Origin: a bacterium 1XD8-76 | GTDB lineage: Bacteria; Bacillota; Clostridia; Lachnospirales; Lachnospiraceae | Direction: 5' to 3' | DNA length: 64,000 bases | NCBI GenBank assembly: GCA_003611955.1 | Contig: RAZE01000007.1 | Coordinates: forward strand, 1 to 64,000 | Part shown: piece after piece, positions 3,433 to 52,913 of the stretch | How positions within the stretch are numbered: the first letter of the stretch is position 1 | Layout of the letters: every line of letters begins with the position of its first letter | The notes under the pieces: model-generated | What the model was told of the DNA's origin: nothing | Seen by the model: only the letters and a program-made list of their open reading frames with translations | The model's database searches: none | Translations under genes and position numbers: made by a program

Positions 3433-3468
3433 AAAAAAGCCGCCCGTTTTTTCATGCCGGACGGCTTT
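3433..3468 (-). terminator. Rho-independent terminator-like hairpin at ICE edge
   Basis: On the minus strand the stem AAAGCCGTCCG pairs with CGGGCGGCTT (one mismatch or wobble) around a loop containing ATGAAAAAA, followed by six T. It stands between the truncated PucR gene and parB, so it would stop read-through from the chromosomal gene into the element, or act as a leader attenuator for parB. Confidence 0.6.
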
Positions 3469-3545
3469 CTGCGTAATGTGATAGCTCAAATAATATTTTT
3501 TTGTGGGTGTAGGCTCCGAAAAGCCTTGATATTACAGTGTTCCTA

Positions 3546-4619: not shown

Positions 4620-4724
4620 TTCTCACGCCTCCGTCTTTCATTTTTTCTTCCGTTCCTTATTCCATTCTACCACCTTTTGTGCTGACGGTACATATTTTGT
4701 CTGCATTTTTAGGTTTCAGACCCA

Positions 4725-4752
4725 TTGGATTTTCTTATCTTTATGTTATGAT
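4725..4752 (+). promoter_or_regulatory. SigA-type promoter for the 52-aa gene
   Basis: TTGGAT and TATGAT are separated by 16 nt. The -10 lies about 46 nt before the ATG at 4799. A putative PucR-type operator could lie here because the regulator is divergent, but none was recognised. Confidence 0.6.
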
Positions 4753-4798
4753 TATCTTACAAAGCAAACACAAATAAAAAATAAAGGAGGGGCATCTC

Positions 4799-4957
4799 AT
4801 GTTAACCATTTCAAACAACCTTGTAACCAACTACAGCTATACACCATCGTGGATCAAGTCCGAGCGTTATCTGTACTGCGACAACTTTGCACAGGATCTT
4901 GCCGGAAGCAGACATACGTCCTTCCTCGCATCTATCCGTAAACTGCTCCACAGATAA
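4799..4957 (+). CDS. Uncharacterised 52-aa small protein
   Basis: An ATG with AAAGGAGGGG 6-8 nt upstream opens a 52-codon frame starting MLTISNNLVTNYSYTPSWIK and ending SIRKLLHR. It has its own promoter (4725-4752) and a perfect terminator (4984-5014), so this is a complete small transcription unit. The product is basic at the C-terminus, rich in Ser/Tyr/Asn, has one Cys (about residue 28) and shows no signal peptide or membrane segment. I do not recognise a family. It is divergent from the truncated PucR gene, whose intact form may have regulated it. Confidence 0.6.
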   Translation: MLTISNNLVTNYSYTPSWIKSERYLYCDNFAQDLAGSRHTSFLASIRKLLHR

Positions 4958-5897: not shown

Positions 5898-5930
5898 ACT
5901 GCGCTCTCTGCTCTCTGCATATTAAAACAG

Positions 5931-8018
5931 TCACCTTTCTTTTGTAAACTCTATCGTTCTCTCGATCGTCTTTTCCTCTCTGATCTCCTCCGGCTGAGAG
6001 TCCTCTCCGCCCTCCCCCGGCACGGATTTCACATTCGTATAATGGAAGGTGATCTTACCGGTCGCGGACTTTATCCCACTGTAGTTTACCGCAAACGGAA
6101 ACGATGCAGTCTGGGTATCCAGCAGTTTCGTGCCGTCCTCCGTCACGATCGTCACCTTTACCGTCGTCTCGCCGTCCCGATATTCCGGATCCTCCGCCAC
6201 GGTCGGCCCGGTGATATTCCCGCTGTAACTGTAAGTCTCTGCCTTTCCGCCCATGCTGATCTTGATATCGATCGGCGTCCCGGGATCCACAAAAGACCCC
6301 ACCGAATAACTCTGGTAGCAGACCTGATTTTCCGGGAAATCATCACTGTTGATGCGTCCCACGCTCCCCAGCGGCAGTCCCGCCTCCACCAGGATCGCCA
6401 TCGCCTCATCCTCTTCTTTCCCCATCAGATCCGGCACGCGAACCTTGGAATCTTCCGCGCCGGTGCTGACTACGATCGTCACCGCGGAACCTTTGGGGGC
6501 CTTGCTCCCGCTCTCCGGATTCTGGGAGATCACGTAATTGCTCTCCACCGTGGCGGAAGAACTCTCGCTTCTGTTCACCACGAAGCCCGCCTTCTCCAGA
6601 GTATTTTTCGCCTCCTCATAGGTGATGTCCGTCGCCTTCGGCACAGTCACGCCCTCGGTACCGGTGCTGACCGTCAGTGTGATGACTGTCCCGGGATCCA
6701 ACATCATGCCCTCCTCCACGTTGGCACTGATCACCTGATTCTGCGGATAAGCGGCATTTTCCACATATTTGATCTCCGTCTTTAACCCCAACCGCTCAAG
6801 CCTCTCCTGCGCGGTCCTTACCGGTATGCCCGTGACGGCGATCATCTCCACCTGCTCGGTCTGCTCTTCCTCCTGTACCGATTCCTCCTCCCGGCTTCCG
6901 CTCAGACGAAACAGCCCCAAAGTCCGGCCTACCAGCACGATGACGATGCAGCCGATGATGATCGCCGCCACGACAGCCAGTATCGTTGTAATCTTCTCCA
7001 TACGGGGATCATAGTCTTCCTCGTAGTCGTCCTCTTCCTCCTCCCCGTGATCCGTATGTCTCACCTTGTTCAGGCGCATACTCTCTTCCATGTTGTCCTT
7101 TGCCGCGGAAGCCTTTTTGATCCGCTCCATCTCCCGCTCCGTGATCATTCGGGTGGACGCCTTCCTGTCCGGCTCCAGCACCTTCACGAAATCCTCATCC
7201 GGATTTAACAGCGACTGCTTCAGATCGTCGATCAGCTCCGCCATGGACTGATACCGTCTGTCCGGGCTCTTCTGGCAGCACTTAAAGACGATCTGCTCCA
7301 CGCTGATCGGGATCTCCGGCACAAACTCCCTCGGTGAGGGCAGTTCCTCCTGGATATGTTTGATGGCGATCGCCACCGTCGTCTCGCCGTTGAACGGCAC
7401 TCTGCCGGTAAGCATCTCAAACATGGTAATTCCCAGAGAATAGATATCGCTCTTCTCGTCGCTGTAGCCGCCTCTCGCCTGCTCCGGCGACGTATAGTGG
7501 ACAGATCCCATCACGTTGGAGGTGATGGTATTGCTGGTAGCGGCCTTCGCGATGCCGAAGTCCGTCACCTTCACCTTGCCCTCCTTGGAAATCATGATAT
7601 TCTGAGGCTTGATATCCCTGTGGATGATGTGGTTATTGTGAGCCGCCTCAATGCCCATGGAAACCTGTATCGCTATGCTGATCGCTTCCTTCACAGAAAG
7701 CCTGGCCTTCTTTTCAATGTATTTCTTTAATGTAATACCTTCCACCATCTCCATCACAAAATAGTAGATGCCGTTCTCTTCCCCCACATCGTAGACATTG
7801 ACAATATTGGGGTGCATCAGCCCTGCCGCCGCCTGCGCCTCCGTCCGAAATTTGGACACAAAATTCGCATTTTCCGAAAACTCCTGCTTTAACACTTTGA
7901 TCGCCACAAACCTGTTCAGTTTATGACACTTCGCTTTATAGACATCTGACATGCCGCCCGTTCCGATCTTTTCCAAAATCTCATAGCGGTCTCCTATCAT
8001 CATTCCGATCTTAATCAT
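5931..8018 (-). CDS. prkC: PASTA-domain Ser/Thr protein kinase (PrkC/StkP/PknB type)
   Basis: About 695 aa. The cytoplasmic kinase domain (about 12-270) shows the glycine loop IGTGGMSDVYK, catalytic HRDIKPQN and DFG. A charged linker (EEEEDDYEEDYD) leads to one membrane helix (about 340-365, ILAVVAAIIIGCIVIVLVG). Three extracellular PASTA repeats follow (about 385-590), plus a beta-rich C-terminal extension of about 100 residues. The PASTA part senses muropeptides or lipid II, and the kinase controls wall growth and germination (family knowledge). A longer GTG start at 8036 exists, but it lacks a ribosome site; the ATG at 8018 has GGAGAAG upstream. It pairs with the phosphatase upstream. Confidence 0.92.
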   Translation of the reverse strand: MIKIGMMIGDRYEILEKIGTGGMSDVYKAKCHKLNRFVAIKVLKQEFSENANFVSKFRTEAQAAAGLMHPNIVNVYDVGEENGIYYFVMEMVEGITLKKYIEKKARLSVKEAISIAIQVSMGIEAAHNNHIIHRDIKPQNIMISKEGKVKVTDFGIAKAATSNTITSNVMGSVHYTSPEQARGGYSDEKSDIYSLGITMFEMLTGRVPFNGETTVAIAIKHIQEELPSPREFVPEIPISVEQIVFKCCQKSPDRRYQSMAELIDDLKQSLLNPDEDFVKVLEPDRKASTRMITEREMERIKKASAAKDNMEESMRLNKVRHTDHGEEEEDDYEEDYDPRMEKITTILAVVAAIIIGCIVIVLVGRTLGLFRLSGSREEESVQEEEQTEQVEMIAVTGIPVRTAQERLERLGLKTEIKYVENAAYPQNQVISANVEEGMMLDPGTVITLTVSTGTEGVTVPKATDITYEEAKNTLEKAGFVVNRSESSSATVESNYVISQNPESGSKAPKGSAVTIVVSTGAEDSKVRVPDLMGKEEDEAMAILVEAGLPLGSVGRINSDDFPENQVCYQSYSVGSFVDPGTPIDIKISMGGKAETYSYSGNITGPTVAEDPEYRDGETTVKVTIVTEDGTKLLDTQTASFPFAVNYSGIKSATGKITFHYTNVKSVPGEGGEDSQPEEIREEKTIERTIEFTKER

Positions 8019-8068
8019 TCTTATTCTCTTCTCCACTCTATAACAGCTATACGGGACTTCCTGATACG

Positions 8069-8797
8069 TCAGATATCAGGCTCGATCAATATCAGAGAAA
8101 TATTGTCCCTGCCACCATTTTGATTTGCCGCTCTCACAAGAGCTTCCGCCTTTTCCATGATGTCGCGCTGGGCATTTACTATCATTCTTATTTCTTCATC
8201 TTCCAGCATATTACTCAGTCCGTCCGAACACAGCAGAATAATGTCCCCCTCCTGCAGCCGGACCTCATAAAAATCCGCCGCAACCGCAGAGGTCACGCCC
8301 ACTGCCCTCGTGATAATATTCTTATTCGGATGGGTCCTTGCGCTCTCGCGGTCCAGCCCTCCTATCCGGATCATCTCCTCCACGAGAGAGTGATCTGTTG
8401 TGATCTGTCTGATGTTCTTTCCATTCACAATATAGAGACGGCTGTCGCCCACATTGCCCACTTTCAGGCAATCTCCGTAGACCACGGCGGCAACCACCGT
8501 AGTGCCCATTCCCTCCAGATCCCGGTTTTCGTTGGAAAGTTCAAAAATACCGGTGTTCGCCACGTTGATAGCGCTCTGGAGTATCTCCTCCGGGCTTCTT
8601 CCCGCAGAATGTTCCACCTCCCTGCAGATCGTATCCACCGCAAAGCGCGAGGCGAAGTCCCCCGCCTTATGACCGCCCATACCATCTGCGATGATAAACA
8701 GATTCGGCAGATTTCCCACCGGCAATTCCGAGGAGTACACCACATCCTGATTCAATTGTCTTCGTTTCCCCTTATCCGATAAGGAGGCTGTTTTCAT
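8069..8797 (-). CDS. prpC: PP2C-type protein phosphatase (Stp1/PrpC)
   Basis: 242 aa with all PP2C metal motifs: QLNQD (about 15-19), ADGMGGH (about 37-43), GNVGDSR (about 114-120), CSDGLS (about 190) and GGRDNIS near the C-terminus. It removes the phosphates that PrkC adds and is encoded directly before it (51 nt spacing), the standard pairing in Firmicutes. I chose the ATG at 8797, with AAGAAGG 5 nt upstream, over the TTG one codon earlier. A 143-nt gap separates it from rlmN. That gap is AT-rich and holds a possible weak promoter (TTATGT-17-TAGAAT on the minus strand). Confidence 0.93.
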   Translation of the reverse strand: MKTASLSDKGKRRQLNQDVVYSSELPVGNLPNLFIIADGMGGHKAGDFASRFAVDTICREVEHSAGRSPEEILQSAINVANTGIFELSNENRDLEGMGTTVVAAVVYGDCLKVGNVGDSRLYIVNGKNIRQITTDHSLVEEMIRIGGLDRESARTHPNKNIITRAVGVTSAVAADFYEVRLQEGDIILLCSDGLSNMLEDEEIRMIVNAQRDIMEKAEALVRAANQNGGRDNISLILIEPDI

Positions 8798-10006: not shown

Positions 10007-11362
10007 TCAGCTCCCCTCTCTTCTCAGACGTGCCAGAAAGAACCCGTCGCAGTCATGCACCCCCGGCACAAGCTGCAGCATTCCTCTCCCCGCCTCATCG
10101 CATATCAGCGCCTCCGGAAGATACGGGTTCAAGCTTTCCGGCACAAGCGGAAAGGATTCGCACATCCATTCCACCTGCTCTTCATTTTCCGCCCGGTGAA
10201 CCGTACAGGTACTGTAGAGAAGTATACCGCCCGGTTTCACGTAGCGCCAGCAGGTTTCTATGATCTCCCGCTGCAATCCCACAAGGGAGGCTAAGCTCTC
10301 CCCTGACACATGATATTTGATATCCCGCTTTTTTCCCAGGATACCCAGACCGGAGCAGGGAAGATCCAGATACAGCACATCCGCTTTCCCCTCCATCCCG
10401 CTGTCAAACACGCGGGCATCGTGGACTTTTACCCTCACGTTCGCCGCCTTTGTCCGCTCTGTATTTTCCCGCAGCAGACTTGCCTTCTCCTCCGACACAT
10501 CCCTCGCCTCCACCTGTCCGCTTCCCCGCAGTTTGCAGGAGGCATGCAGGCTCTTTCCCCCGGGCGCAGCGCAGACATCCAGAACAAAATCCCCAGGCTT
10601 TATCCCCGCGCACTGTGTCACCAGCATGGAGCTCACATCCTGCACCGTCACGTACCCTTCCGCAAATCCGGGCAGTCTCTGTACCCCGTCCACGTTCCGA
10701 CAGCGCCACGCATAGGGCAGCCAGGGATGTCTCTCGCACTGCAGGCCCTTTTTCCTCCACGCTGCCGCGATCTCCTCCTGCCTCTCCGGCGAAAGTTCCT
10801 CGGAAATCCTGAGGCTGACAGGCCTTACCTCCAGAAGCGCACGGCACATTCCCTCCGCCCGCTCTCTGCCGTAATCTTTCTCCCAGAGTTTCACCAGAAA
10901 CTCCGGCATCGAATAACGGACGGACAACGCCCGCGCCCAGTCTTTTTCCCGGTCGGGATACGTTATCTTTTCTCTGTTTCTCGCAATATTCCGCAGCACC
11001 CCATTGACAAACCCTTTCAGGGACTGGAAATGCCGCTTCTGTGCAAGACGCACCGCCTCGTTACAGACCGCGCTGTCCGGCACCGCATCCATATAGAACA
11101 ACTGATAGACGCTCATGCGCAGCAGCTGTCTGATAAACGGCTTCATTTTAGGGACGGGGACACTGGAGAACTGATCGATGATATAATCCAGTTCTATCCG
11201 GCGTTCCACCGTCCCTTCCGTCACCCGCTTGATAAAAGCTTTCTCCTGCGGCGGGAGATAATCATATTTCCCCAGCACCTGTCTGATCAGCACATTGCAA
11301 AAAACGGATCCTTTCTCCATCTCCGACAGGCAGTCCAATATAATTTCCCTTGTATTTTCCAT
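10007..11362 (-). CDS. rsmB: 16S rRNA (cytosine967-C5)-methyltransferase RsmB
   Basis: 451 aa. The N-terminal NusB-like RNA-binding domain (about 1-140) is followed by a Rossmann methyltransferase domain: motif I DVCAAPGGKSLHA (about 260), DLPCSGLGILGKK with the PC catalytic cysteine, and YSTCTVHRAENE with the TC cysteine. It methylates C967 of 16S rRNA. The start codon overlaps the stop of the upstream metallopeptidase (TGATG), showing translational coupling. Confidence 0.95.
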   Translation of the reverse strand: MENTREIILDCLSEMEKGSVFCNVLIRQVLGKYDYLPPQEKAFIKRVTEGTVERRIELDYIIDQFSSVPVPKMKPFIRQLLRMSVYQLFYMDAVPDSAVCNEAVRLAQKRHFQSLKGFVNGVLRNIARNREKITYPDREKDWARALSVRYSMPEFLVKLWEKDYGRERAEGMCRALLEVRPVSLRISEELSPERQEEIAAAWRKKGLQCERHPWLPYAWRCRNVDGVQRLPGFAEGYVTVQDVSSMLVTQCAGIKPGDFVLDVCAAPGGKSLHASCKLRGSGQVEARDVSEEKASLLRENTERTKAANVRVKVHDARVFDSGMEGKADVLYLDLPCSGLGILGKKRDIKYHVSGESLASLVGLQREIIETCWRYVKPGGILLYSTCTVHRAENEEQVEWMCESFPLVPESLNPYLPEALICDEAGRGMLQLVPGVHDCDGFFLARLRREGS

Positions 11363-12087
11363 CAGTCTCTGTCCCTTCCGCCCCTGCCGCCGAACAGCAG
11401 AACAAGACGCAGAAGCTGAAGGACGGAGGAGGCTGCAGCTGCCACATAGGTGAGCGCCGCCGCGCTCAGCACTTTTCGCACATGTCCCACTTCCTGCTGT
11501 CCTAGAATCCCGTACTGTCCCAGCATATCCATCGCTCTGTTCGAGGCGTTAAACTCCACCGGCAATGTCACGATCTGAAACAACACTGCCGCCGAGAACA
11601 CCCAGATGCCGATCTGTGCGAGGAAGGAACCAGCTCCTCCCAACAAAATGCCGAGCAGAATGATCGGTATTCCCAGTCTGCTGCCGATATTTGCCGCCGG
11701 GACGAGAGCCGCGCGGATCTTCAAAGGCGCGTACCCTTTCTGATGCTGCACCGCGTGCCCGCACTCATGGGCCGCCACGCCGATCGCCGCGACGGAATTG
11801 CTTCCGTATACCGCATCGGAGAGGCGCAGCACCTTCCTGGAGGGATCATAGTGATCCGTCAGATTCCCCCTGACATGTTCCACCCGGACATCATAGATGC
11901 CGTTTCGATTTAAAATACGCTGCGCCGCCTCGGCTCCCGTCATGCCGCTCATGCTGCGCACTCTGGCATATTTGCTGTAGGTGCTGTTCACCCTGGCGCT
12001 GGCGACCATGCACAAAACGGCGCCGATCAGAACAAGAATGTATGTCCAGTCCATATAATAATATCCGTATCCATATCCGTAACCCAT
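11362..12087 (-). CDS. Membrane zinc metallopeptidase (YugP-like)
   Basis: 241 aa. It starts with an unusual Gly/Tyr run (MGYGYGYGYYY), a membrane helix (about 14-32), then the zincin motif HECGHA (about 107-112) and two or three more hydrophobic helices (about 135-185). It belongs to the DUF/peptidase family of B. subtilis YugP, often found between fmt and rsmB in Clostridia. The substrate is unknown. A GGAGG lies 6 nt before the ATG. Confidence 0.88.
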   Translation of the reverse strand: MGYGYGYGYYYMDWTYILVLIGAVLCMVASARVNSTYSKYARVRSMSGMTGAEAAQRILNRNGIYDVRVEHVRGNLTDHYDPSRKVLRLSDAVYGSNSVAAIGVAAHECGHAVQHQKGYAPLKIRAALVPAANIGSRLGIPIILLGILLGGAGSFLAQIGIWVFSAAVLFQIVTLPVEFNASNRAMDMLGQYGILGQQEVGHVRKVLSAAALTYVAAAASSVLQLLRLVLLFGGRGGRDRD

Positions 12088-12122
12088 TTTTCACCTCCGA
12101 AAACTGCGACACCATTTATCCT

Positions 12123-13100
12123 CTATGTCAGAATCTCCCCGACCTTCAACGGACATCCCAGAAGAAAATCCCGCACAGGCATCCGTCTCTTTCCTTCCAG
12201 CTGCACCTCTTTCAGGACAAGCACTCCTCTTCCCGTCTGCACATGAATGCTGTCCTTCGCCACAGCCACCACCTCGCCGGGCGTTATCTCTTTCTCCTCG
12301 CTGTGCCGGAACAATCCCGCATGCGCGTTCTCCTCTCTCGGTTCCTCCGAAGCCGCTTCCGCCCTCCAGATTTTCAGGCCTTTGCCGCGCAGGCCGCAGT
12401 AAGCGCTTGGCCAGGGATTCATCCCCCGCACCAGCCTCTCCAACAGGACGGCATCCTTTTCCCATTCTATTTTACCCATATCTTTTGTCAGCATACGCAC
12501 ATGGGTCGCATCCTCCTCATCCTGCTTCACCGGAATGATTTCACCCGCCTCTATCCTCGGCAGCGTCTTTATCAGAAGTTCGGCGCCGAGCACGCTGAGT
12601 TTGTCGAACAGGCTCCCGCCGGTATCGTCGTCTTCCACCGGTATCGCCTTCATCGTCAGGATGTCCCCTGTGTCCATTCCCTCATCCATCTGCATGATCG
12701 TCACACCGGTCACATCATCCCCGTTTAAAACCGCGTACTGGATCGGAGACGCCCCCCGGTATTTGGGAAGCAGGGAGGCATGGATATTGACGCATCCGTA
12801 CCGCGGCATCTCCAGTATCTCCCTGGACAGGATCTGTCCGAACGCAGCCACCACAAAGATGTCCGCCTCAAATTTTCGAAGTTCCTCCACAGCCTCCGGC
12901 GCTTTGATCCTCTCCGGCTGCAAAACCGTGAGCCCATGGGACAGAGCGCACTCCTTGACCGGAGAAAACTGTACTTTCCGGTCCCGCCCCTTTTGTTTAT
13001 CCGGCTGCGTCACCACCGCCGTCACCTCATGTCCTGCCTTGAGCAGCGCTTCCAATGCTCCCACCGCGAAATCCGGTGTACCCATAAAAATCACTTTCAT
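12123..13100 (-). CDS. fmt: Methionyl-tRNA formyltransferase
   Basis: 325 aa with the 10-formyl-THF binding and catalytic motifs of the family: MGTPDFAVGALEALL at the N-terminus, NIHASLLPKYRGASPIQ (about 107-123), and MDEGMDTGDIL. The C-terminal OB-like tRNA-binding domain is present (RVLVLKEVQLEGKRRM-like region). It formylates Met-tRNAi to start translation and lies 27 nt after def, its functional partner. Confidence 0.96.
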   Translation of the reverse strand: MKVIFMGTPDFAVGALEALLKAGHEVTAVVTQPDKQKGRDRKVQFSPVKECALSHGLTVLQPERIKAPEAVEELRKFEADIFVVAAFGQILSREILEMPRYGCVNIHASLLPKYRGASPIQYAVLNGDDVTGVTIMQMDEGMDTGDILTMKAIPVEDDDTGGSLFDKLSVLGAELLIKTLPRIEAGEIIPVKQDEEDATHVRMLTKDMGKIEWEKDAVLLERLVRGMNPWPSAYCGLRGKGLKIWRAEAASEEPREENAHAGLFRHSEEKEITPGEVVAVAKDSIHVQTGRGVLVLKEVQLEGKRRMPVRDFLLGCPLKVGEILT

Positions 13101-43018: not shown

Positions 43019-44224
43019 ATGCCAAACTATCAAAAAACCAAAACCGCCTGTTACTTGGGATTTATCACACAGGCAATAGCCGCCAACTTTGCGCCGCTGT
43101 TATTTTTAAAATTCCATAGCGATTACCGCATTTCCCTTGGAAATATTGCACTGATCTCCACATGTTTTTTCTTTACACAGCTTTTAATAGATGTGTTTTG
43201 CGCAAAATTTGTGGACAGGATCGGATACCGTATATGTATCGTCATCTCTGAGGTATGTGCTGCCGCCGGACTGATCGGTCTGGCGTTCCTTCCGGATATT
43301 TTACCGAACCCGCTTGTGGGAATTATATGCAGCGTCATTCTGTACGCGATAGGAAGCGGATTGATCGAAGTGCTCTGCAGCCCTATTGTAGAGGCCTGCC
43401 CGTTCGAAAATAAGGAAGCGACCATGAGCCTGCTTCATTCCTTCTATTGTTGGGGCTCCGTGGGAACGATATTGATCTCAACCCTGTTTTTCCTGCTGTT
43501 CGGTATGGACAGCTGGAAATGGCTCACCTTATTATGGGCAATCATCCCGACAATGAATATCTATAATTTTGCGACATGTCCCATAGAACATTTAATGGAT
43601 GAAGGAAATGGAATGGGGATAAGAATGTTGTTCCGTAAACCGATCTTCTGGCTGTTCGTCTGTCTGATGGTTTGCTCCGGTGCATCGGAACTTGCTATGG
43701 CGCAGTGGGCGTCAGCTTACGCGGAAGCGGCGCTGGGATTATCAAAAACGATCGGAGATTTAGCCGGCCCCTGTATGTTTGCTGTCACGATGGGGATTAG
43801 CCGTGTGATTTTTGGAAAATATGGCGACAAAATGGATCTGATGAAATTTATGACCGGCTCCGGAATTTTGTGTGTGATTTGCTATCTTATCACCTCCCTG
43901 TCATCCAGCCCGCTGCTTGGACTGATCGGCTGTATTATGTGCGGTTTCTCTGTCGGAATCATGTGGCCCGGAACGATCAGTATTTCATCTGAAAAATTTC
44001 CGGCGGGTGGAACCGCCATGTTCGCGCTGCTTGCCATGGCAGGAGATTTGGGCGGGAGCATCGGCCCCGGCATCGTCGGCAGTATCACGCAGAAGGCAGG
44101 AGATAATATTCGTATCGGCATGGGCGTCGGGCTTGTATTTCCGGTTATTTTATTAACGATGCTCTTTATGCTCAGCAGGTCAAAAAAAGGAGCCTTTACG
44201 GCACATACCACTCCGCAATACTGA
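43019..44224 (+). CDS. Major facilitator superfamily transporter (sugar-type)
   Basis: 401 aa from MPNYQKTKTACYLGFITQ. Twelve hydrophobic segments are visible, with the MFS loop 2-3 signature degenerate (DRIGYRICIV). SVGIMWPGTISISSEKFPAGG resembles fucose/glucose permeases (FucP/YcaD-like). I chose this start because the upstream frame overlaps the 77-aa gene and AGGAAG precedes the ATG. It overlaps the 3' end of the convergent blaR1-like gene by 29 nt. Confidence 0.82.
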   Translation: MPNYQKTKTACYLGFITQAIAANFAPLLFLKFHSDYRISLGNIALISTCFFFTQLLIDVFCAKFVDRIGYRICIVISEVCAAAGLIGLAFLPDILPNPLVGIICSVILYAIGSGLIEVLCSPIVEACPFENKEATMSLLHSFYCWGSVGTILISTLFFLLFGMDSWKWLTLLWAIIPTMNIYNFATCPIEHLMDEGNGMGIRMLFRKPIFWLFVCLMVCSGASELAMAQWASAYAEAALGLSKTIGDLAGPCMFAVTMGISRVIFGKYGDKMDLMKFMTGSGILCVICYLITSLSSSPLLGLIGCIMCGFSVGIMWPGTISISSEKFPAGGTAMFALLAMAGDLGGSIGPGIVGSITQKAGDNIRIGMGVGLVFPVILLTMLFMLSRSKKGAFTAHTTPQY

Positions 44225-46442
44225 CAACCTCCCCGCCCTCCACCTCAAGCGACCAGAAAATCGGATAGTCCGCCTCTCTCAAATATACCGTGAACTCATC
44301 TTCCCCCACATCTACAGCCGGACCGGATCCGCCCGCCAGAACATGATAGGTGCAGTCGCTGCGGACCCGGTATGTGATATCCGCCCCCTCCAGATCGACG
44401 ATCTCAAAGCCCGCGTCCATGTCATACTCCGGCTTCCAGTCTCCGCTTTCCGGCGTCACCCAGTCCCTTCTGTCTACGGTAACCGTGTTGCTGCCGTAAT
44501 TGAAGTCAGATATATATCCCAGAACCTGCGCAGAGAGAGCACCTGTCTCCGTAATATGCTCTTCCGGCAGAAGCACTGCGAAAGTATCCGCAATCACAGG
44601 CAGCTCCATTCCCCAGCCTTCCTCCGCCTCCGAAGGGTAACAGAAAAATACGCACCATACGCCTGTCTGCGCCTCAAACAATCTGACATGATAGCTGCTG
44701 CCGTCTTCCTGTTTTGACATACCGGCTTTATCCGCCACATAGCCCTCATCCGCCAGAATCTGTTCGATCGAATAACCGCTCTCAAAACCTGCCACCCAGA
44801 GCCTGACGTCCTCATTCACCACCGCCCGCCAGGTGTCCGCCGACTCCTTCTGCCATTCCCCTTCGGGCAAATAAAGGATATAGCCATCCTCCGCAACAAG
44901 CTCCGCCTGTTTTTCCTCGGGTATGCCTTCCTTCATGATCGAAAGCGTGATCGTCTCCCCCGCTGTCTGCACAGCATCGCCAGTATTTTCGGCAGCGCTG
45001 TCCTCCCCGGCACTCCCCGCATCCTGTGACGCATTGCGCACCCAGTAAACATCCTCATCATACCAGTCCATCAGAATATATTCTGAACCGCCGTCATTAT
45101 GATACTGCAGAGTCAGTATCTCCTGTTCAGCGGTGAGATCCTCGTAAGGTTCCACCTCCACCGTGACAACGCCGCCCTGCTCTGCACACTGGCCGGTCCC
45201 GCCGACGCCGATACCGATATAATAGCTGAACGTCCCCGACTCCGACAGTTCCATGCTGTCCCCAAAGGATATCCCTGTCCCCCAGATCGTAGAATCCGTC
45301 CGATCAAAATCGATGATCCAACTCCCCGCCATCTTTGCGAACATCGTATCTCCTGCGTCTCCCGGGAAATTTTCTGCGGACTCCGTCAGACTCCCGTCAG
45401 AGTCCTCCGCCTTATCCTTCACCACGGAACATCCCATAAGCGTCCCCGCGCTGAGAGTCAGAAGCACCGCGCACACTAAGATATATCGGCCGTTTCTCTT
45501 TCCCGTCTTCCTCAGAATATTCTGAAATCGTTTCTTCATAACCTTCTTTCCCCCGTAAAATCCTGTCGATAAGGCCGTGCTTCTTTCACAGCCTTTATGC
45601 AGTGTAGAGAGCAAAGTCTCCGTATACATCTTCCGCATCGCAAGATCCGCTCCCTGAACCACCCTTTCATCGCAGGCAAGCTCCATATCCACCACCGCCT
45701 CTTTCCGCATTAGATGGACCAGCGGATTAAACCAGTGCAGCGCTCCCGCCGTCATAAACAACAGCTTACTCTGCAGATCTCTGCGCTTCAGGTGTACCAG
45801 TTCATGTTTCAGGATATAGAAAAGTTCCTGCGCATTGTACCGATCCTCCGGCAGGATCAGAACCGGTTTTAAAAAACCGAGGATCATCGGGCTCGCCGCG
45901 CCGGGATATTCCATGATGGGTACAACGCGCCTGATCTGCAGCTCGCGTTTACATGCCAAAAACTGCTGTAAGACCACAGGATCTTTTACAAGTGTCCCCC
46001 TCCGGGACACCCGCCTTCTATATATACAATAACTAGTTATATTAATAAATATATATACAAGGCAGCCGGATCCCCACATGTACGCCGCGATATCCAGTGC
46101 GGTAATGTTTTTTTCCGTCTGCACGGGGAGCGGCACAGTCATCTGTGCCGGCACTTCCACGACCAATCTTCCCGGAACAGTACCGGTATCCGTCGCCGTC
46201 TCCCCGGTTTTCTCCGCTGTCGTCGACGCTTTCTCCCTCCACTGCTGCCATACATCCGCCGCGGATCGTCCTGGCGCTCCCCCGAGCGGAACAGCCAGCC
46301 TGAGCGCCAGGACGATCCATATCAAATATTTCCATTTCGCCGCATATCGCTTATTCAAAAAGGGTGACAAAAGAAACAGGAGCACAATGAGCGCACTGAC
46401 CGACGCCGATGTTCCCAGCACAGAAAGAAACAGATCCGTCAT
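44196..46442 (-). CDS. BlaR1-like M56 metallopeptidase with non-penicillin-binding sensor
   Basis: 748 aa. Three or four membrane helices and a zinc-protease domain (HELVHLKRRD, about 213-222) occupy residues 1-315; SPFLNKRYAAKWKYLIWIVL is typical M56. A further helix (YILVCAVLLTLSAGTLMGC, about 320-340) leads into a secreted C-terminal part with two different beta-rich regions (WIIDFDRTDSTIWGTG..., LPEGEWQKESADTWRAVV...). No SxxK or KTG triad of a beta-lactam sensor is evident, so the signal differs. It cleaves or inactivates BlaI-type repressors (family knowledge). The start overlaps the blaI-like stop (TGATG). Confidence 0.85.
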   Translation of the reverse strand: MTDLFLSVLGTSASVSALIVLLFLLSPFLNKRYAAKWKYLIWIVLALRLAVPLGGAPGRSAADVWQQWREKASTTAEKTGETATDTGTVPGRLVVEVPAQMTVPLPVQTEKNITALDIAAYMWGSGCLVYIFINITSYCIYRRRVSRRGTLVKDPVVLQQFLACKRELQIRRVVPIMEYPGAASPMILGFLKPVLILPEDRYNAQELFYILKHELVHLKRRDLQSKLLFMTAGALHWFNPLVHLMRKEAVVDMELACDERVVQGADLAMRKMYTETLLSTLHKGCERSTALSTGFYGGKKVMKKRFQNILRKTGKRNGRYILVCAVLLTLSAGTLMGCSVVKDKAEDSDGSLTESAENFPGDAGDTMFAKMAGSWIIDFDRTDSTIWGTGISFGDSMELSESGTFSYYIGIGVGGTGQCAEQGGVVTVEVEPYEDLTAEQEILTLQYHNDGGSEYILMDWYDEDVYWVRNASQDAGSAGEDSAAENTGDAVQTAGETITLSIMKEGIPEEKQAELVAEDGYILYLPEGEWQKESADTWRAVVNEDVRLWVAGFESGYSIEQILADEGYVADKAGMSKQEDGSSYHVRLFEAQTGVWCVFFCYPSEAEEGWGMELPVIADTFAVLLPEEHITETGALSAQVLGYISDFNYGSNTVTVDRRDWVTPESGDWKPEYDMDAGFEIVDLEGADITYRVRSDCTYHVLAGGSGPAVDVGEDEFTVYLREADYPIFWSLEVEGGEVVSIAEWYVP

Positions 46443-46846
46443 CACACATCCTCCTCCCCGGCATGCTCCGCCTCTATCCTGTCCAGAAATTCCCGGAGTT
46501 CCTCCACATCGGAGCTTTTGATCGCCTTACTGTCGTAAAGACAGGCGATCAGATTCTGGATCGAATTGTCGTAGAGTCTCTCCAGAAAATGTCTGCTAGC
46601 CCCTGCCTTATACTCTCTCTCCGAAATAAGCCAGCTGTACAGATTGCTCCCCGTGGAGCGATCACAGCGCACAAAGCCTTTATCCGCAAGTCTGGTGAGG
46701 GACGTCATCAGCGTGGAGAGCTGCCATTTTCTCCGCCCCTGCAGTTCCTTTAATATGTAATTGGAGGTCACTGCCGTCTCAGCGTCCCAGATCACCTGCA
46801 TGATCTCCAGCTCGGCTTCCCCCAGCTTTTTGATTGTATCTGCCAT
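46442..46846 (-). CDS. BlaI/MecI-family repressor
   Basis: 134 aa. The N-terminal winged helix covers KLGEAELEIMQVIWDAETAV to RLADKGFVRCDRS, followed by the dimer region (SWLISEREYKAGASRHFLERL). It represses its own operon, and probably other genes, by binding two inverted repeats in front of itself. It is released by its protease partner encoded immediately downstream. GGAGATG lies before the ATG. Confidence 0.9.
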   Translation of the reverse strand: MADTIKKLGEAELEIMQVIWDAETAVTSNYILKELQGRRKWQLSTLMTSLTRLADKGFVRCDRSTGSNLYSWLISEREYKAGASRHFLERLYDNSIQNLIACLYDSKAIKSSDVEELREFLDRIEAEHAGEEDV

Positions 46847-46881
46847 CTCTACATCTCCAACTCGTAAATTTCGCCCAACAG

Positions 46882-46931
46882 GTTATACAACCGTATAACA
46901 CATTATACAATTGTATAAGCCGTTTTGTCAA
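46882..46931 (-). promoter_or_regulatory. blaI-like promoter with two 16-18-bp operators
   Basis: On the minus strand TTGACA (46926-46931) and TATAAT (46902-46907) are spaced 18 nt apart. TTATACAATTGTATAA (46903-46918) is a perfect palindrome covering the spacer and -10. TTATACAACCGTATAA (46883-46898) lies one footprint downstream. The 20-bp centre spacing puts both on one face of the helix, as in bla/mec operators. Confidence 0.8.
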
Positions 46932-47020
46932 CATAATCCGATTTAAATGGTGAGATTCTTTTCTTTTATCTGAAAATGCGCTATACTGGAACTATCATAA
47001 AGATAGTAAGGAGCAATTCC

Positions 47021-47920
47021 ATGTGCAGACGCCTCTCCATCTATTTTAAAGAAATGTATCCGATCCCATCAAGATTTGTCCTCGGACTGATCATCTTCGG
47101 AGAGATCCATTTTATCATCCTGCTGAACGCGGGGCTCAGGGATTTTAAGCCGGGATTACAGGAGTTGATCGGCGGGTTTACCGTGTTCAGCTTTCTTCTG
47201 TGGCTGCGGATCGCTGACGATTTCAAGGACTATGAACTGGATTGCCGCCTGTTCTCCCACAGACCCCTCCCCTCCGGCAGGGTACATAAAAAGGACCTTG
47301 CGATCTTTGTCACGATCCTCATCACAGTCACCGTGCTGCTAAATCTGATTTTTATGAACAATTTCGGATTTTTTCTGTTCCTTTATATCTACGGGACTCT
47401 GATGTCCCTCTGGTTTTTCAGCAAAAAAAAGATTCAGAAAAGCCTGCCTCTGGCGTTAGTCACCCACAATCCGGTGCAGATGATCATGAACATCTACATC
47501 ATCTCGTTCACCTGCTTTAAGTATGATCTCCCGCTCTTTACCCGGGTGAATTTTCTCGCCGCATGGACGCTCTACTTCCCGGCGCTGATCTGGGAGATCG
47601 CAAGGAAAATCCGGGCGCCGAAGGACGAGACGGAGTATGTGACCTACTCCAGTCTGTTCGGCTATAAAAAAGCCGCCCGGTTTATCCTGATCATCACCTG
47701 GGTGGATATCATCACTAATTTTTTGCTGGTGTGGAACTTAAATAAGATCACGGTGTTAGCGCTGTTTACAGACGTGTCCTGGATGACCGTAAAATTCTTA
47801 CAGTTTATGAAAGATCCGACCCGATTTACCATCGTGGAGAAGGTGGAGAGGTATACCTACATTCAGGAATCGCTGATGCTGTTGACTATACCGGTCTATC
47901 TGATCTTCGGAGCGATATAG
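47021..47920 (+). CDS. UbiA-family prenyltransferase-like membrane protein
   Basis: 299 aa, seven to nine hydrophobic helices. The first Asp-rich motif RIADDFKDYELD (about 65-76) is followed by HRPLPSGRV, both hallmarks of the UbiA superfamily, which binds prenyl diphosphate via Mg. The second motif is altered (WEIARKIRAPKDETEYVTYS, with KDETEY in place of DxxxD). The usual role is to join a prenyl chain to an aromatic or lipid-head acceptor. AAGGAG is 7 nt before the ATG at 47021; the frame continues upstream without a start. It heads a four-gene operon of unknown purpose. Confidence 0.75.
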   Translation: MCRRLSIYFKEMYPIPSRFVLGLIIFGEIHFIILLNAGLRDFKPGLQELIGGFTVFSFLLWLRIADDFKDYELDCRLFSHRPLPSGRVHKKDLAIFVTILITVTVLLNLIFMNNFGFFLFLYIYGTLMSLWFFSKKKIQKSLPLALVTHNPVQMIMNIYIISFTCFKYDLPLFTRVNFLAAWTLYFPALIWEIARKIRAPKDETEYVTYSSLFGYKKAARFILIITWVDIITNFLLVWNLNKITVLALFTDVSWMTVKFLQFMKDPTRFTIVEKVERYTYIQESLMLLTIPVYLIFGAI

Positions 47921-47965
47921 ATATGCCGGCAAATACCATGATCCTACCCAAACGGAGAACTGCCC

Positions 47966-50410
47966 ATGATCATCTGCCTTAAAAATCACACGACAACCGA
48001 ACTCGGCTCCAAAGCCCGAAATCTCTTCCTGCTCCTGGAGGCAGGCTTTTCGGTGCCTCCCCTTTTCTGTGTGGATCAGGCCTTCCGGGAGGAGGAGGTT
48101 CTCGGTTATCTGGCGGCGCACTTCCCCGATACCGCATCCTTTTCCGTCCGCTCCTGCGCCTCCCTGGAGGATTCCGATCGCTGTTCCTTCGCGGGACAGT
48201 TCAAAACCTTCCTGCAGGTGCCGCGGGAGGAAGTCTGTATGCGCATCCGGGATATTCTCTCCGACGCGGAGCGCCCCGAAATTCTCTCCTACTGCAAAAT
48301 CCATAAGCTTGACCCAGGAGCTCTCACAATGCACGTCATCATACAGGAGATGCTTAAGCCGGATCTCTCCGGCATTCTGTTCACCGCCAACCCGCAGGGT
48401 ATCCTGAACGAATCCGTCATCGTCTGCGGAAGAGGCACCGGCGATCAGGTCGTCGAGGACAGGACGGATACCACCACCTACTATTATCATCTCTCCGACC
48501 GGATCTGTTACTACGAACAGACCGGCGCCTCCCCCCTGCTGACGGAAAAAGAGACAGAAGAACTGATACGATCTTCCCGGAAGATCCGAGCGCTTCTCGC
48601 CCCGGAATCCGGCGTGCAGCATGAGGAGGAGTTCGATATAGAATTTGCGATACAAAACAAAAAACTATACTTTCTGCAGGTACGCCCCATCACATCCATC
48701 GATAAAACTGCCCCCGTCATCATTCTGGACAACAGCAACATCGTGGAGAGTTATCCCGGCATCACCCTGCCTCTCACCCAGAGCTTCATCCGGGAGGCTT
48801 ACTATCAGGTGTTTAAAAGCCTGCTGCTCCACCTGACCGGCGAACCAGAGACGGTGGCCCGGATCGACGAAACTCTGAAACACATGGTGGATGTGGCAAA
48901 CGGACGCGTCTATTACCGCATCAGCAACTGGTACGATGTGCTGCTCTTTCTGCCCTTTTCCGATCGTCTGATCCCCCTCTGGCAGGAAATGATGGGCGTC
49001 AAAGACAAGACCGTAAACTCCGACAGAAACGGACACATCCGCCGGAGCACCCGATTCAAAGTGACCTATTCCTTTTTCCGGCTTCTGTTCACCTGCCCCA
49101 GGGAAATGGATCGGCTGGATCTGTATTTCGCACAGATCATAGAGCGGTTTGAATCTCTGCGGACAGACACGGAAGGGAACCGGACTCTGTTGGCCCGCTA
49201 CCGCGAGCTGCAGGACATGACGGTAAAGCGCTGGGATATCACCCTGGTCAACGACATGTACAGTTTTCTATTCACGGGTCTCTTAAAATCCAGTCTGAAA
49301 GCCAAACACGTCCCCGCCTGTGAACTGGCGGCCAACCGCGCCATCTCCGGTGTGCAGAAACTGGAGAGCATGCGCCCGATCGAACATTTGCAAAAGCTGG
49401 CGTCCCGGGCGAAAAAAGAAAACCGTCTGCCGGAACTGAAATCACTCCGCGACAATGAGGCGTATTTCCGATATATCCGGCAAAACGACAACTCCTTTTC
49501 CCGGGCTCTGCAGGCCTATATCCAAACCTTCGGCGATCGAAATGTGGAAGAACTGAAGCTGGAGAGCAAAACTTTCCGCACGGATCCGATCCTGTTGATA
49601 CGCTGTGTCGTGCAGTGCGCCGAGACGCTTTCCGAACAGGACTACCCGGCCCAGGAGACAGCCGATCCTCCCCTCGCCGGCCTTTCCGCTTTCTTTGCGG
49701 GCAGAGCCGCCGTCGGCATCCGAAACCGGGAGAAATCCAGACTTCACCGGGGACGTCTCTACGGTATGATGCGTTCTCTTGTTCTGCAGATGGGACAAAA
49801 CCTGCGCCGACAGGAAAGGATCACGGATGCCTCGGACGTCTTCTGGCTCTACTGTGAGGAAATCGAAGCGGCGGATTCGGATCCCTCTCTCGACCTGAAA
49901 GAGATCATCGCCGGGCGGAAAAAAGAATACGACGGCTACGCCCAACTTCCCGCCTACTCCAGGCTTATCTTCTCCGGAAAGATAGCCGATAAACATCCGG
50001 GGAGAAATCACAGAATGCGTCATGACAGGACAGACGATATCCACACCGGCACCGCCTGTTCGCCGGGTATCGCGGAGGGAGAAGTGCTGTTGATCGATAA
50101 TCCCTCTCCTCTGCTCGACACAAAGGGAAAGATACTTGTCACAAAAATGACGGATCCCGGCTGGGTATTTCTGATCGCACCGGCAAAGGCCATCGTCTCG
50201 GAGAAGGGCTCTCTTCTCTCCCACACGGCGATCCTCGCAAGAGAACTGAAAAAACCTGCCGTGACCGGCGTGGAACATATCACGGAATATCTGAGAACCG
50301 GAGACCGCATCCGGGTGGACGGCGACACCGGCATCGTAACCATTCTGCACGGCGCCCGGAGTGAAAATACTCCGAAAGACAAACGGAGGGAAGGAGAAAA
50401 ACTGTCATGA
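47966..50410 (+). CDS. PEP-synthase-like / rifampin-phosphotransferase-like enzyme
   Basis: 814 aa in three parts. The ATP-grasp N-terminal domain (about 1-250) has GSKARNLFLLLEAGFSVPP, SVRSCASLEDSDRCSFAGQF, SGILFTANPQG and EFDIEFAIQNKKLYFLQVRP. A helical middle (about 260-700) follows. The C-terminal swivelling phosphohistidine domain has TGTACSPGIAEGEVLL and EKGSLLSHTAILAREL (catalytic His). The PEP-binding barrel of true PEP synthase is absent. The layout is that of rifampin phosphotransferases, which pass the beta-phosphate of ATP to a small-molecule acceptor. The acceptor here is unknown. It overlaps the next gene by 4 nt. Confidence 0.8.
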   Translation: MIICLKNHTTTELGSKARNLFLLLEAGFSVPPLFCVDQAFREEEVLGYLAAHFPDTASFSVRSCASLEDSDRCSFAGQFKTFLQVPREEVCMRIRDILSDAERPEILSYCKIHKLDPGALTMHVIIQEMLKPDLSGILFTANPQGILNESVIVCGRGTGDQVVEDRTDTTTYYYHLSDRICYYEQTGASPLLTEKETEELIRSSRKIRALLAPESGVQHEEEFDIEFAIQNKKLYFLQVRPITSIDKTAPVIILDNSNIVESYPGITLPLTQSFIREAYYQVFKSLLLHLTGEPETVARIDETLKHMVDVANGRVYYRISNWYDVLLFLPFSDRLIPLWQEMMGVKDKTVNSDRNGHIRRSTRFKVTYSFFRLLFTCPREMDRLDLYFAQIIERFESLRTDTEGNRTLLARYRELQDMTVKRWDITLVNDMYSFLFTGLLKSSLKAKHVPACELAANRAISGVQKLESMRPIEHLQKLASRAKKENRLPELKSLRDNEAYFRYIRQNDNSFSRALQAYIQTFGDRNVEELKLESKTFRTDPILLIRCVVQCAETLSEQDYPAQETADPPLAGLSAFFAGRAAVGIRNREKSRLHRGRLYGMMRSLVLQMGQNLRRQERITDASDVFWLYCEEIEAADSDPSLDLKEIIAGRKKEYDGYAQLPAYSRLIFSGKIADKHPGRNHRMRHDRTDDIHTGTACSPGIAEGEVLLIDNPSPLLDTKGKILVTKMTDPGWVFLIAPAKAIVSEKGSLLSHTAILARELKKPAVTGVEHITEYLRTGDRIRVDGDTGIVTILHGARSENTPKDKRREGEKLS

Positions 50411-51834
50411 AAAGCATCAGCGAATATCTGGAGGATGATAAAAACAAATGGGCACACCGCCCCTATATCAGCACAAAAGAAAACGGCGTCTGGCGTACCC
50501 GCACTTTCCGGGAAGTCATAGACGACATCCAGGGTCTGTCCAAATCCCTTCTCGCCCGCGGTCTGGAACAGAAAAACATCATGATCTGCTCGGAGAACTC
50601 CTACGAGTGGATTCTCCTGTACTTCGGCATCATGGGGTATGTCGGCACCTGTGTGCCGGTGGATAAAGAGTGGACAGCCTGGGATCTTCAAAACACCCTG
50701 TCAGCTGTTTCCGTCTCAGCCATATTTTACTCCCGCTCCCGGGGAGAACGGTTTCGGTCTGTCATGGAACAAACTCCGGACATCTCCTGGTTTTGCATCG
50801 AGGACGTTCTGACCGATCTGATCCGGGAGGGAAAAGCCTCCGGGACGCCTCTGTACGGCAAGGTACAGACGGAACAAACCGCTATGATCCTGTTTACCTC
50901 CGGTACCACCAACGTCCCCAAAGCGATCCCCCTGACACAGCATAACCTGTTTGCCAACTGGGAAACGCTGTACCGGCGGACCCCCATGACAGAACAGGAC
51001 ATCTCCTACGTATTTCTGCCCTTTCACCACGTCTATACGGGCGTGGCCAACATATTATACACCCTTGTCTCCGGCATGCAGCTTTTTCTCTGCTCCGATC
51101 TGCAGCGCATGCTCCCGGAACTGACGGAAGTCCGCCCCACCGTTGTATGCACCGTGCCATTGTTTTTATACCGTATGTACGACGCCATGAACGACGCGCT
51201 CCTGGATATGCTGCAAAACATCCGCTTTCTCTACTGCGGCGGCAGTTTTACGGACCCTGCTGTCAAGGAATACTTTATCAAGCAGGGCATCTGTCTTCTG
51301 GAGGCCTACGGCACCACGGAAACTTCCTCCGTCATCGCCCTCGCCCGCCCCGGCGATCCGGACCTCGCCGCAAACGGCGTTGTCCTCGAAAACCTCACAG
51401 TGCGGATCCTCACCCCTGACGAGAACGGCGTGGGAGAGATCGTCGTATCCGGCGAAAGTGTCTCCGAAGGATATCTGAACCGGAATGACCGCTACTCCGA
51501 GTTTGACAAGGACGGCTATCACACCGGAGATCTGGGTATTCTTTCCCCCGACGGGCATCTGTACCTGAAAGGCAGAAAAAAACGTATGATTCTGACTGCC
51601 AACGGAAAGAACATTTATGTGGAGGAGTTGGAAGCGCTGCTCTTACAACATCCTCAGATTAAGACCGCCGCTGTCTTTGAGGAAAACCACCACCCCGCCG
51701 CCGCCGTTACAGCCGGCCTTTCCGAGGAAGAGATGAGGAAATATCTCGCTCAGGTCAACAGCCGGCTGCCCCGCTACAAACAGATCCGTAAATTTTACTT
51801 AAAACCGGACATTCCCGGAGGACGTATCAAATGA
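50407..51834 (+). CDS. Adenylate-forming ligase (acyl-CoA synthetase family)
   Basis: 475 aa. A3 P-loop ILFTSGTTNVPKAIPLT (about 160-176), A5 LEAYGTTETSS, A7 YHTGDLG (about 372-378), A8 KGRKKRMILTANGKNIYVEE. The C-terminus ends IPGGRIK, where the family has a catalytic Lys (PSGKIKR), so Arg takes the A10 lysine's place and the protein stops right after. It would activate a carboxylic acid as an adenylate and perhaps pass it to CoA or an amine, but the A10 change may lower adenylation. AAGGAG is upstream. Its stop overlaps the GNAT start (ATGA). Confidence 0.85.
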   Translation: MKSISEYLEDDKNKWAHRPYISTKENGVWRTRTFREVIDDIQGLSKSLLARGLEQKNIMICSENSYEWILLYFGIMGYVGTCVPVDKEWTAWDLQNTLSAVSVSAIFYSRSRGERFRSVMEQTPDISWFCIEDVLTDLIREGKASGTPLYGKVQTEQTAMILFTSGTTNVPKAIPLTQHNLFANWETLYRRTPMTEQDISYVFLPFHHVYTGVANILYTLVSGMQLFLCSDLQRMLPELTEVRPTVVCTVPLFLYRMYDAMNDALLDMLQNIRFLYCGGSFTDPAVKEYFIKQGICLLEAYGTTETSSVIALARPGDPDLAANGVVLENLTVRILTPDENGVGEIVVSGESVSEGYLNRNDRYSEFDKDGYHTGDLGILSPDGHLYLKGRKKRMILTANGKNIYVEELEALLLQHPQIKTAAVFEENHHPAAAVTAGLSEEEMRKYLAQVNSRLPRYKQIRKFYLKPDIPGGRIK

Positions 51835-52913
51835 ATTACCGAGTGATCAGCTTTTCATCAGAAGAACAGTATATCCGCAAATTTCTGGAACTTCCCGGCA
51901 GACTTTATTCCCGGAAGGAAATCATGCAGCAGCCGGAGGAAGAACGGCGCATCCTGACGGGAACCCATGTGCTGAGCCATTATTTCACGGTCTTTCCGCT
52001 GCTTGTCCTGGACGAGGAGAAAAATCCCGTGAGCCGCGCAGTCCTGACGGTCTACCCCGGCGACAGGACAGCTTACCTCGGCTTTTTCGAGAGTGAAAAT
52101 AACGAAAAGGCGGCCTCCATGCTGCTCCAAAAAGCGGAAAAAATTGCCGTGAATCAGAACTGCGACAAAATCTGCGGTCCCATTGACGCCTCCTTCTGGA
52201 TCCGCTACCGCTTTAAGACAAACTGTTTCGACCGCTCCTACACCGGGGAGCCGTACAACAGGGATTACTATACCGCCCTGTGGCAAAAATCCGGATATGA
52301 GGTGACAGAACGTTACTACTCCAACCACTACCGGAGCGTGGAACGTTCTCATCAAAACGCCCTGTTCTCCGCCAGGCTTGCCCAAAAACAGGAGGAGGGC
52401 TACCGGATCGGGAGTCCCTCCAAAGATACTTTCGACCGCACGCTGATCGAAGTCTACGAGCTTCTGATCGAGCTGTATCAGAATTTTCCGGCCTACAAGC
52501 GCATCAGCAGAGAGGAGTTTGTCTCTCTCTACAGTTATCTGAAAATGCTGATCCGCTATCCCATGGTAAAAATGGCTTACTATCAGGGGAAAGCCGTCGG
52601 TTTTTTCATCAGCATTCCGGACTACGGGAACGCGGTGTACGGAAAACTCACCCTGCTCGATTATCTGCGCATCCTGAGAATCCATGCAAGGCCCGCCTCC
52701 TACGTGATGCTTTATATGGGTATAGACGCCTCCCACCATGGTCTCGGCAAAGCCATGGCCGAGGCCATAAAAGAAGAACTGAAAATCTCGGGCGTCCCCT
52801 CCGTCGGCGCGCTGATCCGTCAGGGCAACATCAACAAGGATTACTTTCAGGAGCTGATCGACTGCGAGTATGAATATGTATTGTTACATAAAAATCTGAC
52901 CGGCGGTTTTTGA
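51831..52913 (+). CDS. GNAT-superfamily acyltransferase, long form
   Basis: 360 aa, about twice a minimal GNAT. The N-terminal half has LGFFESENNEKAASMLLQKA and CDKICGPIDASFWIRY, reminiscent of FemX/BtrH-like two-lobed GNAT proteins. The C-terminal half contains VGFFISIPDYG and LYMGIDASHHGLGKAMAEA, the acyl-CoA loop (HxGxG/A-like), and ends VLLHKNLTGGF. It is the last gene of the operon and may transfer the acyl group activated by the ligase. GGAGG is 9 nt before the ATG. No signal peptide. Confidence 0.72.
   Translation: MNYRVISFSSEEQYIRKFLELPGRLYSRKEIMQQPEEERRILTGTHVLSHYFTVFPLLVLDEEKNPVSRAVLTVYPGDRTAYLGFFESENNEKAASMLLQKAEKIAVNQNCDKICGPIDASFWIRYRFKTNCFDRSYTGEPYNRDYYTALWQKSGYEVTERYYSNHYRSVERSHQNALFSARLAQKQEEGYRIGSPSKDTFDRTLIEVYELLIELYQNFPAYKRISREEFVSLYSYLKMLIRYPMVKMAYYQGKAVGFFISIPDYGNAVYGKLTLLDYLRILRIHARPASYVMLYMGIDASHHGLGKAMAEAIKEELKISGVPSVGALIRQGNINKDYFQELIDCEYEYVLLHKNLTGGF

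Follow-up and report, generated by a model that had tools for sequence, protein, structure and literature searches.

A conserved four-gene operon as the probable core of a membrane-lipid pathway in Clostridia

We analysed a 64,000-nt stretch of DNA (the window) from the bacterium 1XD8-76 (Lachnospiraceae; assembly GCA_003611955.1, contig RAZE01000007.1), in which four co-directional genes at 47021-52913 on the + strand encode a UbiA-like membrane protein, a dikinase resembling rifampin phosphotransferase (RPH), an adenylate-forming ligase, and a GNAT acyltransferase. We propose, with a probability of roughly 0.6, that these genes encode the core of a pathway dedicated to a membrane lipid in Clostridia; on the best reading of the data, the product of this pathway carries an amino head group. 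Comparison of gene neighborhoods indicates that, outside the window's genus, the core is mostly encoded with a candidate lipid kinase and the CDP-lipid enzyme CarS, often together with the serine transferase PSS and the decarboxylase PSD; a distant version has a DUF3419 protein instead. It is this recurring comparative evidence that assigns the genes to a lipid pathway. What the lipid is, and in which order the core enzymes act, we infer.

The open reading frame (ORF) listing shows that all four genes are real: UbiA at 47021..47920, the dikinase ("PPS", 814 aa) at 47966..50410, the ligase at 50407..51834, and the GNAT (360 aa) at 51831..52913. The first two are separated by 45 nt and the next two junctions are 4-nt overlaps, so that the tight packing described in the initial annotation is confirmed, as are its family labels, several with scores just below the curated cut-offs. 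That annotation also proposed that the genes belong together. Scanning genome contigs, we found 195 UbiA relatives and kept the best 80 loci by UbiA similarity, the set to which our locus counts refer. The dikinase gene accompanies UbiA on the same strand in 80/80 loci, the GNAT is present in 73, and the ligase in 27. Four of the seven loci lacking the GNAT are cut by a contig edge near the operon (L056, L061, L064, L112) and three are not (L042, L085, L110). Far from being scattered and unlinked, the homologues stay together: UbiA and the dikinase, nearly always with the tandem GNAT and sometimes with the ligase, are evidently inherited as a unit. We rejected a chance neighborhood as an explanation, given that the same arrangement recurs in dozens of genomes.

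The operon is found in many gut and rumen Clostridia. Within the order, 21/392 genomes have UbiA relatives, that of the window included, and long dikinase orthologues, sought among 98 relatives, were found in the window's genome and 5 of its 8 congeners. Carriers other than metagenome bins include Ruminococcus flavefaciens YRD2003, Pseudobacteroides cellulosolvens, and Lachnoanaerobaculum species. The distances between genes are correlated as well: for 27/28 gene pairs the correlation exceeds all 200 permutations, the exceptional pair being PSS and the ligase, where 13/200 permutations reached the observed value.

The genes that accompany the core in relatives point to phospholipid synthesis. 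CarS is encoded in 67 of the 80 loci, the kinase DgkA in 62, PSS in 38, and PSD in 39. Setting aside the window's genus and its nearest kin (L037-L046), CarS is found in 67/70 loci, with L059 (at a contig edge), L066, and L110 as the exceptions. This CarS belongs to PF01864 (64.9 bits, above the cut-off), and it scores 81.8 bits, under the cut-off of 148, against NF003114, the model for CDP-2,3-bis-(O-geranylgeranyl)-sn-glycerol synthase. Of 291 genomes in the class, six have a CarS match that is strong (≥45 bits): in four it is part of the operon, in one it belongs to a variant operon that also encodes UbiA-like, dikinase, and PSS proteins, and in one it stands beside a dikinase-PSD remnant. 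Every one of the 67 CarS loci has exactly one kinase candidate, either DgkA (62) or a dikinase paralogue that we call PPS2 (5), never both and never neither; the combination of CarS and PPS2, without DgkA in view, recurs in six more loci, L169-L174, which come from distant families. PPS2 is 19-21% identical to the dikinase in the window. This exchange of DgkA for PPS2 suggests that the RPH fold acts as a lipid-alcohol kinase in these operons.

Two loci with CarS have unusual architectures. L231, a variant operon with UbiA-like and dikinase genes, encodes between CarS and PSS a 923-aa fusion of HMG-CoA reductase (343 bits) to an EcKL/APH kinase (5131-7902, - strand). HMG-CoA reductase was found in 1/28 genomes searched, and we therefore rejected it as a general partner of the operon. 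In L232 (5876-8104, genome G890), a CarS-like ORF is followed by a single ORF matching both dikinase and PSD models, apparently the remnant of an operon.

The link to PSS extends to whole genomes. PSS is present in 25/26 genomes with the type-1 operon (the kind found in the window) compared to 7/26 without a detected operon (Fisher 3e-7). When PSS is absent from the operon, it is encoded elsewhere in the genome in 8/9 cases (Fisher 0.002), and it is paired with PSD in the 7/7 of those cases that we read. For the window's genus and its nearest kin (L037-L046), there is no CarS, DgkA, PSS, or PSD in view of the operon, and CarS is missing from all nine genomes of the genus that we searched (that of the window and eight congeners). 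Nevertheless, at E 1e-10, PSS is found in five of the six genomes of the genus that carry the operon, that of the window among them, and in 0/3 without it (Fisher 0.048); at E 1e-5, the operon-less congener G004 gives a weak, partial match. All eight stretches that we read around an unlinked PSS contain a PSS-PSD pair (G000, G001, G005, G006, G008, G811, G525, G732). In G005 and G006, about 16 kb separate the operon from the pair, which is downstream of it; G732 has the pair in addition to a PSS inside the operon. Two PSS genes are likewise found in G825, G1089, and G097; together with the kinase and CarS borne by the operon, they hint at a second lipid made beside ordinary phosphatidylethanolamine.

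In a distant version of the operon, type 2, the head-group genes are exchanged. Six genomes (G084, G074, G678, G908, G961, G1159) encode a distant UbiA-dikinase pair with a DUF3419 protein (scores of 210 and 236 bits) and a 440-aa membrane protein; five of the six also have the GNAT and the ligase, G084 being the exception, and PSS was found in 0/6. We take DUF3419 to be the domain of the betaine-lipid enzyme BtaA, and the membrane protein presumably resembles phytol or dolichol kinases; it has a sub-threshold match to CTP_transf_1 in L167 (E 0.0011), and the halves tested from L141 and L142 gave none. A core that stays while the head-group genes change is suggestive of a role in making the lipid rather than the head group. 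G084 encodes a condensation-domain protein with a weak match to PapA5 between UbiA and the dikinase (L141:11277-12608, - strand), perhaps a substitute acyltransferase.

An unlikely alternative is that ordinary phosphatidylethanolamine or phosphatidylserine, supplied as substrate by PSS and PSD, is modified by the core enzymes, which might for instance N-acylate or prenylate its head group. The presence of PSS in nearly all type-1 genomes fits this idea, and the PSS-PSD pair of the window's genus and the second, unlinked pair in G732 are of one kind. The GNAT fits too. Its sequence scores 20.4 bits against Acetyltransf_1 (cut-off 20.7), and its structure model, with a predicted local distance difference test (pLDDT) score of 93.5, has two GNAT domains, which makes this protein, described earlier as a long GNAT, an unusual one. 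The best solved matches are tandem GNATs (5kf1, Z 20.2, root-mean-square deviation (rmsd) 4.3, 289 residues aligned), and the nearest folds are those of glucosamine N-acetyltransferase, a clavulanate-pathway GNAT, and mycothiol synthase, the first and last of which act on amines. However, the operons of most relatives bring their own kinase and CarS, four genomes have two PSS genes, and type 2 retains the core without any PSS; these observations speak against it.

The ligase carries the expected features of its family (AMP-binding, 186.1 bits; motifs A3, A5, A7, and A8). Measured against the canonical A10 motif with its lysine (GK), its A10 is altered, as had been pointed out, and reads GGRIK at the extreme C-terminus. 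The pattern GGR[ILM]K ends 19/27 type-1 ligases and the other eight deviate, with the lysine in the final column of the motif kept in 27/27. Adenylating ligases and GNATs are common in natural-product clusters, and among the nearest biosynthetic relatives of the dikinase are the prodigiosin ligases PigC and RedH (154 and 144 bits, far below their cut-offs). Thus, the operon might instead make a secreted or signaling small molecule, a prenylated or acylated natural product and no membrane lipid. We consider this improbable, given the repeated coupling of the core to CDP-lipid, serine-transferase, and decarboxylase genes and the presence of the operon in a genome of only 1.2 Mb (G1042).

The dikinase is related to an enzyme of known structure. 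The initial annotation described it as built like RPH but lacking a phosphoenolpyruvate (PEP) barrel; indeed, a family scan of the 814-aa protein finds PPDK_N and PEP-utilizers domains and no PEP/pyruvate barrel. Its structure model (pLDDT 90.5) matches RPH 5hv1 best among solved structures (Foldseek, E 2.5e-32), and the RPH family is also the top hit by profile search (E 1.4e-80). Alignment with 5fbt (VIA-align) covers 658 residues with Z 28.0 and an rmsd of 13.6 Å, a large value that probably reflects differing domain poses. The approximate ATP-grasp domain is encoded by 47966..48715 (residues 1-250; PPDK_N match at 49-252, match to the RPH ATP domain 5hv6 at 1-243), the mostly helical central domain, counterpart of the rifampin-binding domain, by 48716..50035 (approximately residues 251-690, from the structural alignment), and the swivel phosphohistidine domain by 50036..50350 (residues 691-795; PEP-utilizers match at 720-789, structural match at 689-795), all on the + strand. 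The match to RPH spans the full length of the protein.

In RPH-Lm, Arg117, Arg666, Glu667, and His825 are tied to catalysis (PMC4844700). These align with R62, R588, E589, and H753 of the dikinase (H753 codon, 50222-50224), which are invariant in 46/46 relatives, and all four recur in each of the 17 type-1, type-2, and paralogue sequences that we compared. The dikinase K16 we pair with RPH Lys22 by position only, since the alignment skips that stretch. Judged from sequence and model, then, the dikinase keeps the full RPH architecture and catalytic residues, and it is predicted from its sequence to be a competent hydroxyl phosphotransferase. Could it simply inactivate a drug, as had been suggested among other options? 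The full-length structural match and an adjoining BlaI/BlaR1 pair speak for this reading. But the dikinase scores 154.4 against the RIF_Ptrans_rph equivalog NF041857, whose cut-off is 999, its linkage to UbiA and lipid genes is conserved, and BlaI/BlaR1-like genes occur near the operon in only 6/94 loci searched (L037, L038, L040, L041, L044, L170); we regard this explanation as the most improbable of those considered and dropped it.

Several dikinase genes depart from the usual form. In L145 (G097), the orthologue at 6853-8493 aligns from residue 252 onward only, seemingly lacking the ATP-grasp domain, and the same cluster has a second dikinase of 757 aa with this domain at 2672-4945; the two are perhaps a split, two-protein enzyme. 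The dikinase gene is spread over several frames in L098 (Roseburia inulinivorans DSM 16841, 10902-13008) and is in pieces in L049, L073, and L086, through decay or assembly errors.

The UbiA-like protein is the best conserved of the core genes, with a mean identity of 93% across five congeners compared to 71% for the dikinase, 80% for the ligase, and 78% for the GNAT. The ORF listing extends it to an ATG at 46976; we favor the start at 47021 because relatives begin there and AAGGAG precedes it (47008-47013). It scores 31.3 bits against PF01040 (cut-off 34.2) and 441.6 against NF010118 (cut-off 443), the PRK13592 prenyltransferase family, whose name states no function; the relative in L083 exceeds this cut-off with 446.1. 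Used as a query on 398 genomes of the phylum, NF010118 gave six matches at E 0.001, none above the cut-off. With the canonical Asp-rich motifs of UbiA proteins as a yardstick, the first motif is present (ADDFKDYELD) and the second is altered, as first noticed in the initial annotation: it reads RKIRAPKDETEYVTYSSLFG (also given as RKIRAPKDETEYVTYS). The change is found across the family, and E192, R195, K196, E203, T208, Y209, and G214 do not vary among the 33 relatives aligned, so the altered motif is a family trait and not a sign of decay.

The closest solved structure to the UbiA-like protein is, weakly (E 1.4e-5), that of digeranylgeranylglyceryl phosphate (DGGGP) synthase 6m31. Together with the CarS family and the finding that in several loci PSS scores higher against archaetidylserine synthase than against pssA, this raises the possibility that bacteria acquired the canonical archaeal ether-lipid route, with glycerol-1-phosphate, geranylgeranylglyceryl phosphate (GGGP) synthase, DGGGP synthase, CarS, and archaetidylserine. 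It is very unlikely. GGGP synthase (PF01884) is above the cut-off in 0/34 operon genomes, four of which have sub-threshold matches of 20-22 bits, and as a control the model is exceeded in five known genomes, which largely refutes the route for that step. The PSS scores fall far under the archaeal cut-offs, the PSS of L231 is closer to pssA, PSD is of the bacterial PRK00723 type, and CarS was found in none of the nine genomes searched of the window's genus. One control genome, that of Deinobacterium chartae, matches NF010118 (below the cut-off), PF01884, and PF01864.

Several results weigh against the proposal of a dedicated lipid pathway. CarS is missing from 13/80 loci, ten of them from the window's genus group, and only about one locus in two has PSS and PSD within the operon. 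With its head-group genes outside the operon, the window itself is linked to phospholipids only indirectly. The genome counts share ancestry and are not independent, one genus providing 5/8 of the unlinked-PSS cases; kinship of the organisms alone could likewise yield the correlated gene distances. G003 has the operon and no match to PSS. A full-text search of open-licence papers found none whose title or abstract describes the operon. With regard to the prenyl donor, the E-type prenyl-diphosphate synthase (PF00348) is found in 57 of 58 genomes, the window's among them: 52 have one copy and five have two, three of these with the operon (G1181, G084, G678) and two with no operon detected (G030, G636). 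A dedicated extra copy accompanying the operon was sought in these 58 genomes and not found. The genome with none, G1042 (1.2 Mb, 98% complete), has a full operon (L172) with UbiA motifs intact and no match to PF00348 or to the Z-type family PF01255. This speaks against an endogenous prenyl donor and implies that UbiA may use a donor other than an endogenous prenyl diphosphate; G1042 is a single assembly that may be incomplete, or the organism may scavenge. Among the options in the initial annotation, building or modifying a prenylated lipid stands as the best, with prenyl transfer itself putative.

In the pathway that we envision, UbiA would work within the membrane and attach a hydrophobic group (judging by its family, a prenyl group donated as the diphosphate) to a small acceptor bearing a hydroxyl. 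The dikinase would charge His753 from ATP and then phosphorylate a hydroxyl of a pathway intermediate. The lipid would be activated with CDP, given serine, and decarboxylated to ethanolamine; in the window's genus, these head-group steps would fall to the unlinked PSS-PSD pair and putative general CDP-lipid and kinase enzymes. The ligase would provide an activated acyl group that the GNAT would hand on to the lipid, at a hydroxyl or an amine, the latter possibly that of the head group.

Upstream of the operon lies a divergent BlaR1/BlaI pair (M56 peptidase and penicillinase repressor; 44196-46846 on the - strand, and 46877-46924). The region between the pair and UbiA contains imperfect inverted and direct repeats of 20-22 nt that resemble BlaI operators and could also reach the UbiA promoter. 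Limited to six loci, these proteins were rejected as a general regulator of the operon. A scan for promoters and terminators gave about as many sites as shuffled sequences, apart from two perfect promoter-like sites outside genes. Downstream of the operon is a convergent gene for a DUF3792 protein.

If the proposal is correct, an undescribed membrane-lipid pathway that mixes archaeal-type and bacterial enzymes exists in a sizeable group of bacteria from gut and rumen. This would bear on the "lipid divide" and on which lipids a host encounters in its gut. A branch of proteins that carry the NCBIfam name phosphoenolpyruvate synthase would also gain a biosynthetic role, with the RPH fold standing in for a lipid kinase. 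We offer more tentatively the idea that common gut and rumen Clostridia make a phospholipid with a core other than diacylglycerol and without GGGP synthase, RPH relatives serving as lipid kinases. That core would be either isoprenoid or a hybrid of isoprenoid and acyl parts, processed by CarS and a serine transferase of archaeal type, or else wholly new, the UbiA-fold enzyme drawing on a donor that is not an endogenous prenyl diphosphate. Because there are carriers beyond metagenome bins, lipidomics can test the lipid-pathway reading.

The operon shares features with several known systems. Like RPH-Lm (5fbt, 5hv1; PMC4844700), the dikinase has an ATP-grasp domain, a central helical substrate domain, and a C-terminal phosphohistidine swivel domain, in that order, and retains the catalytic Arg, Arg-Glu, and His; it differs in its identity of only ~20%, its score far under the rifampin equivalog cut-off, and its conservation within a lipid-gene operon. 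That RPH-like domains can phosphorylate other small hydroxyl compounds is illustrated by the phenolic dikinase HpeHI, which is reported to be catabolic, split in two proteins, and active on aromatic substrates (PMC12167813). The similarity to BtaA is confined to the DUF3419 protein encoded with the type-2 core; it does not extend to the window, and no N-methyltransferase gene was recognized beside the type-2 DUF3419 gene among the ORFs listed. With the archaeal phospholipid pathway, the operon has in common a UbiA protein whose closest solved structure is DGGGP synthase and, in relatives, CarS and a CDP-alcohol:serine transferase and decarboxylase in one operon. In contrast to that pathway, there is no GGGP synthase above the cut-off, the second UbiA motif is changed, and the dikinase, tandem GNAT, and DgkA-type kinase are added. 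FCB-group bacteria also hold lipid genes usually termed archaeal; they are reported to have GGGP and DGGGP synthases without CarS (PMC7852524), whereas most relatives of the operon described here have CarS and GGGP synthase was above the cut-off in none of the genomes searched.

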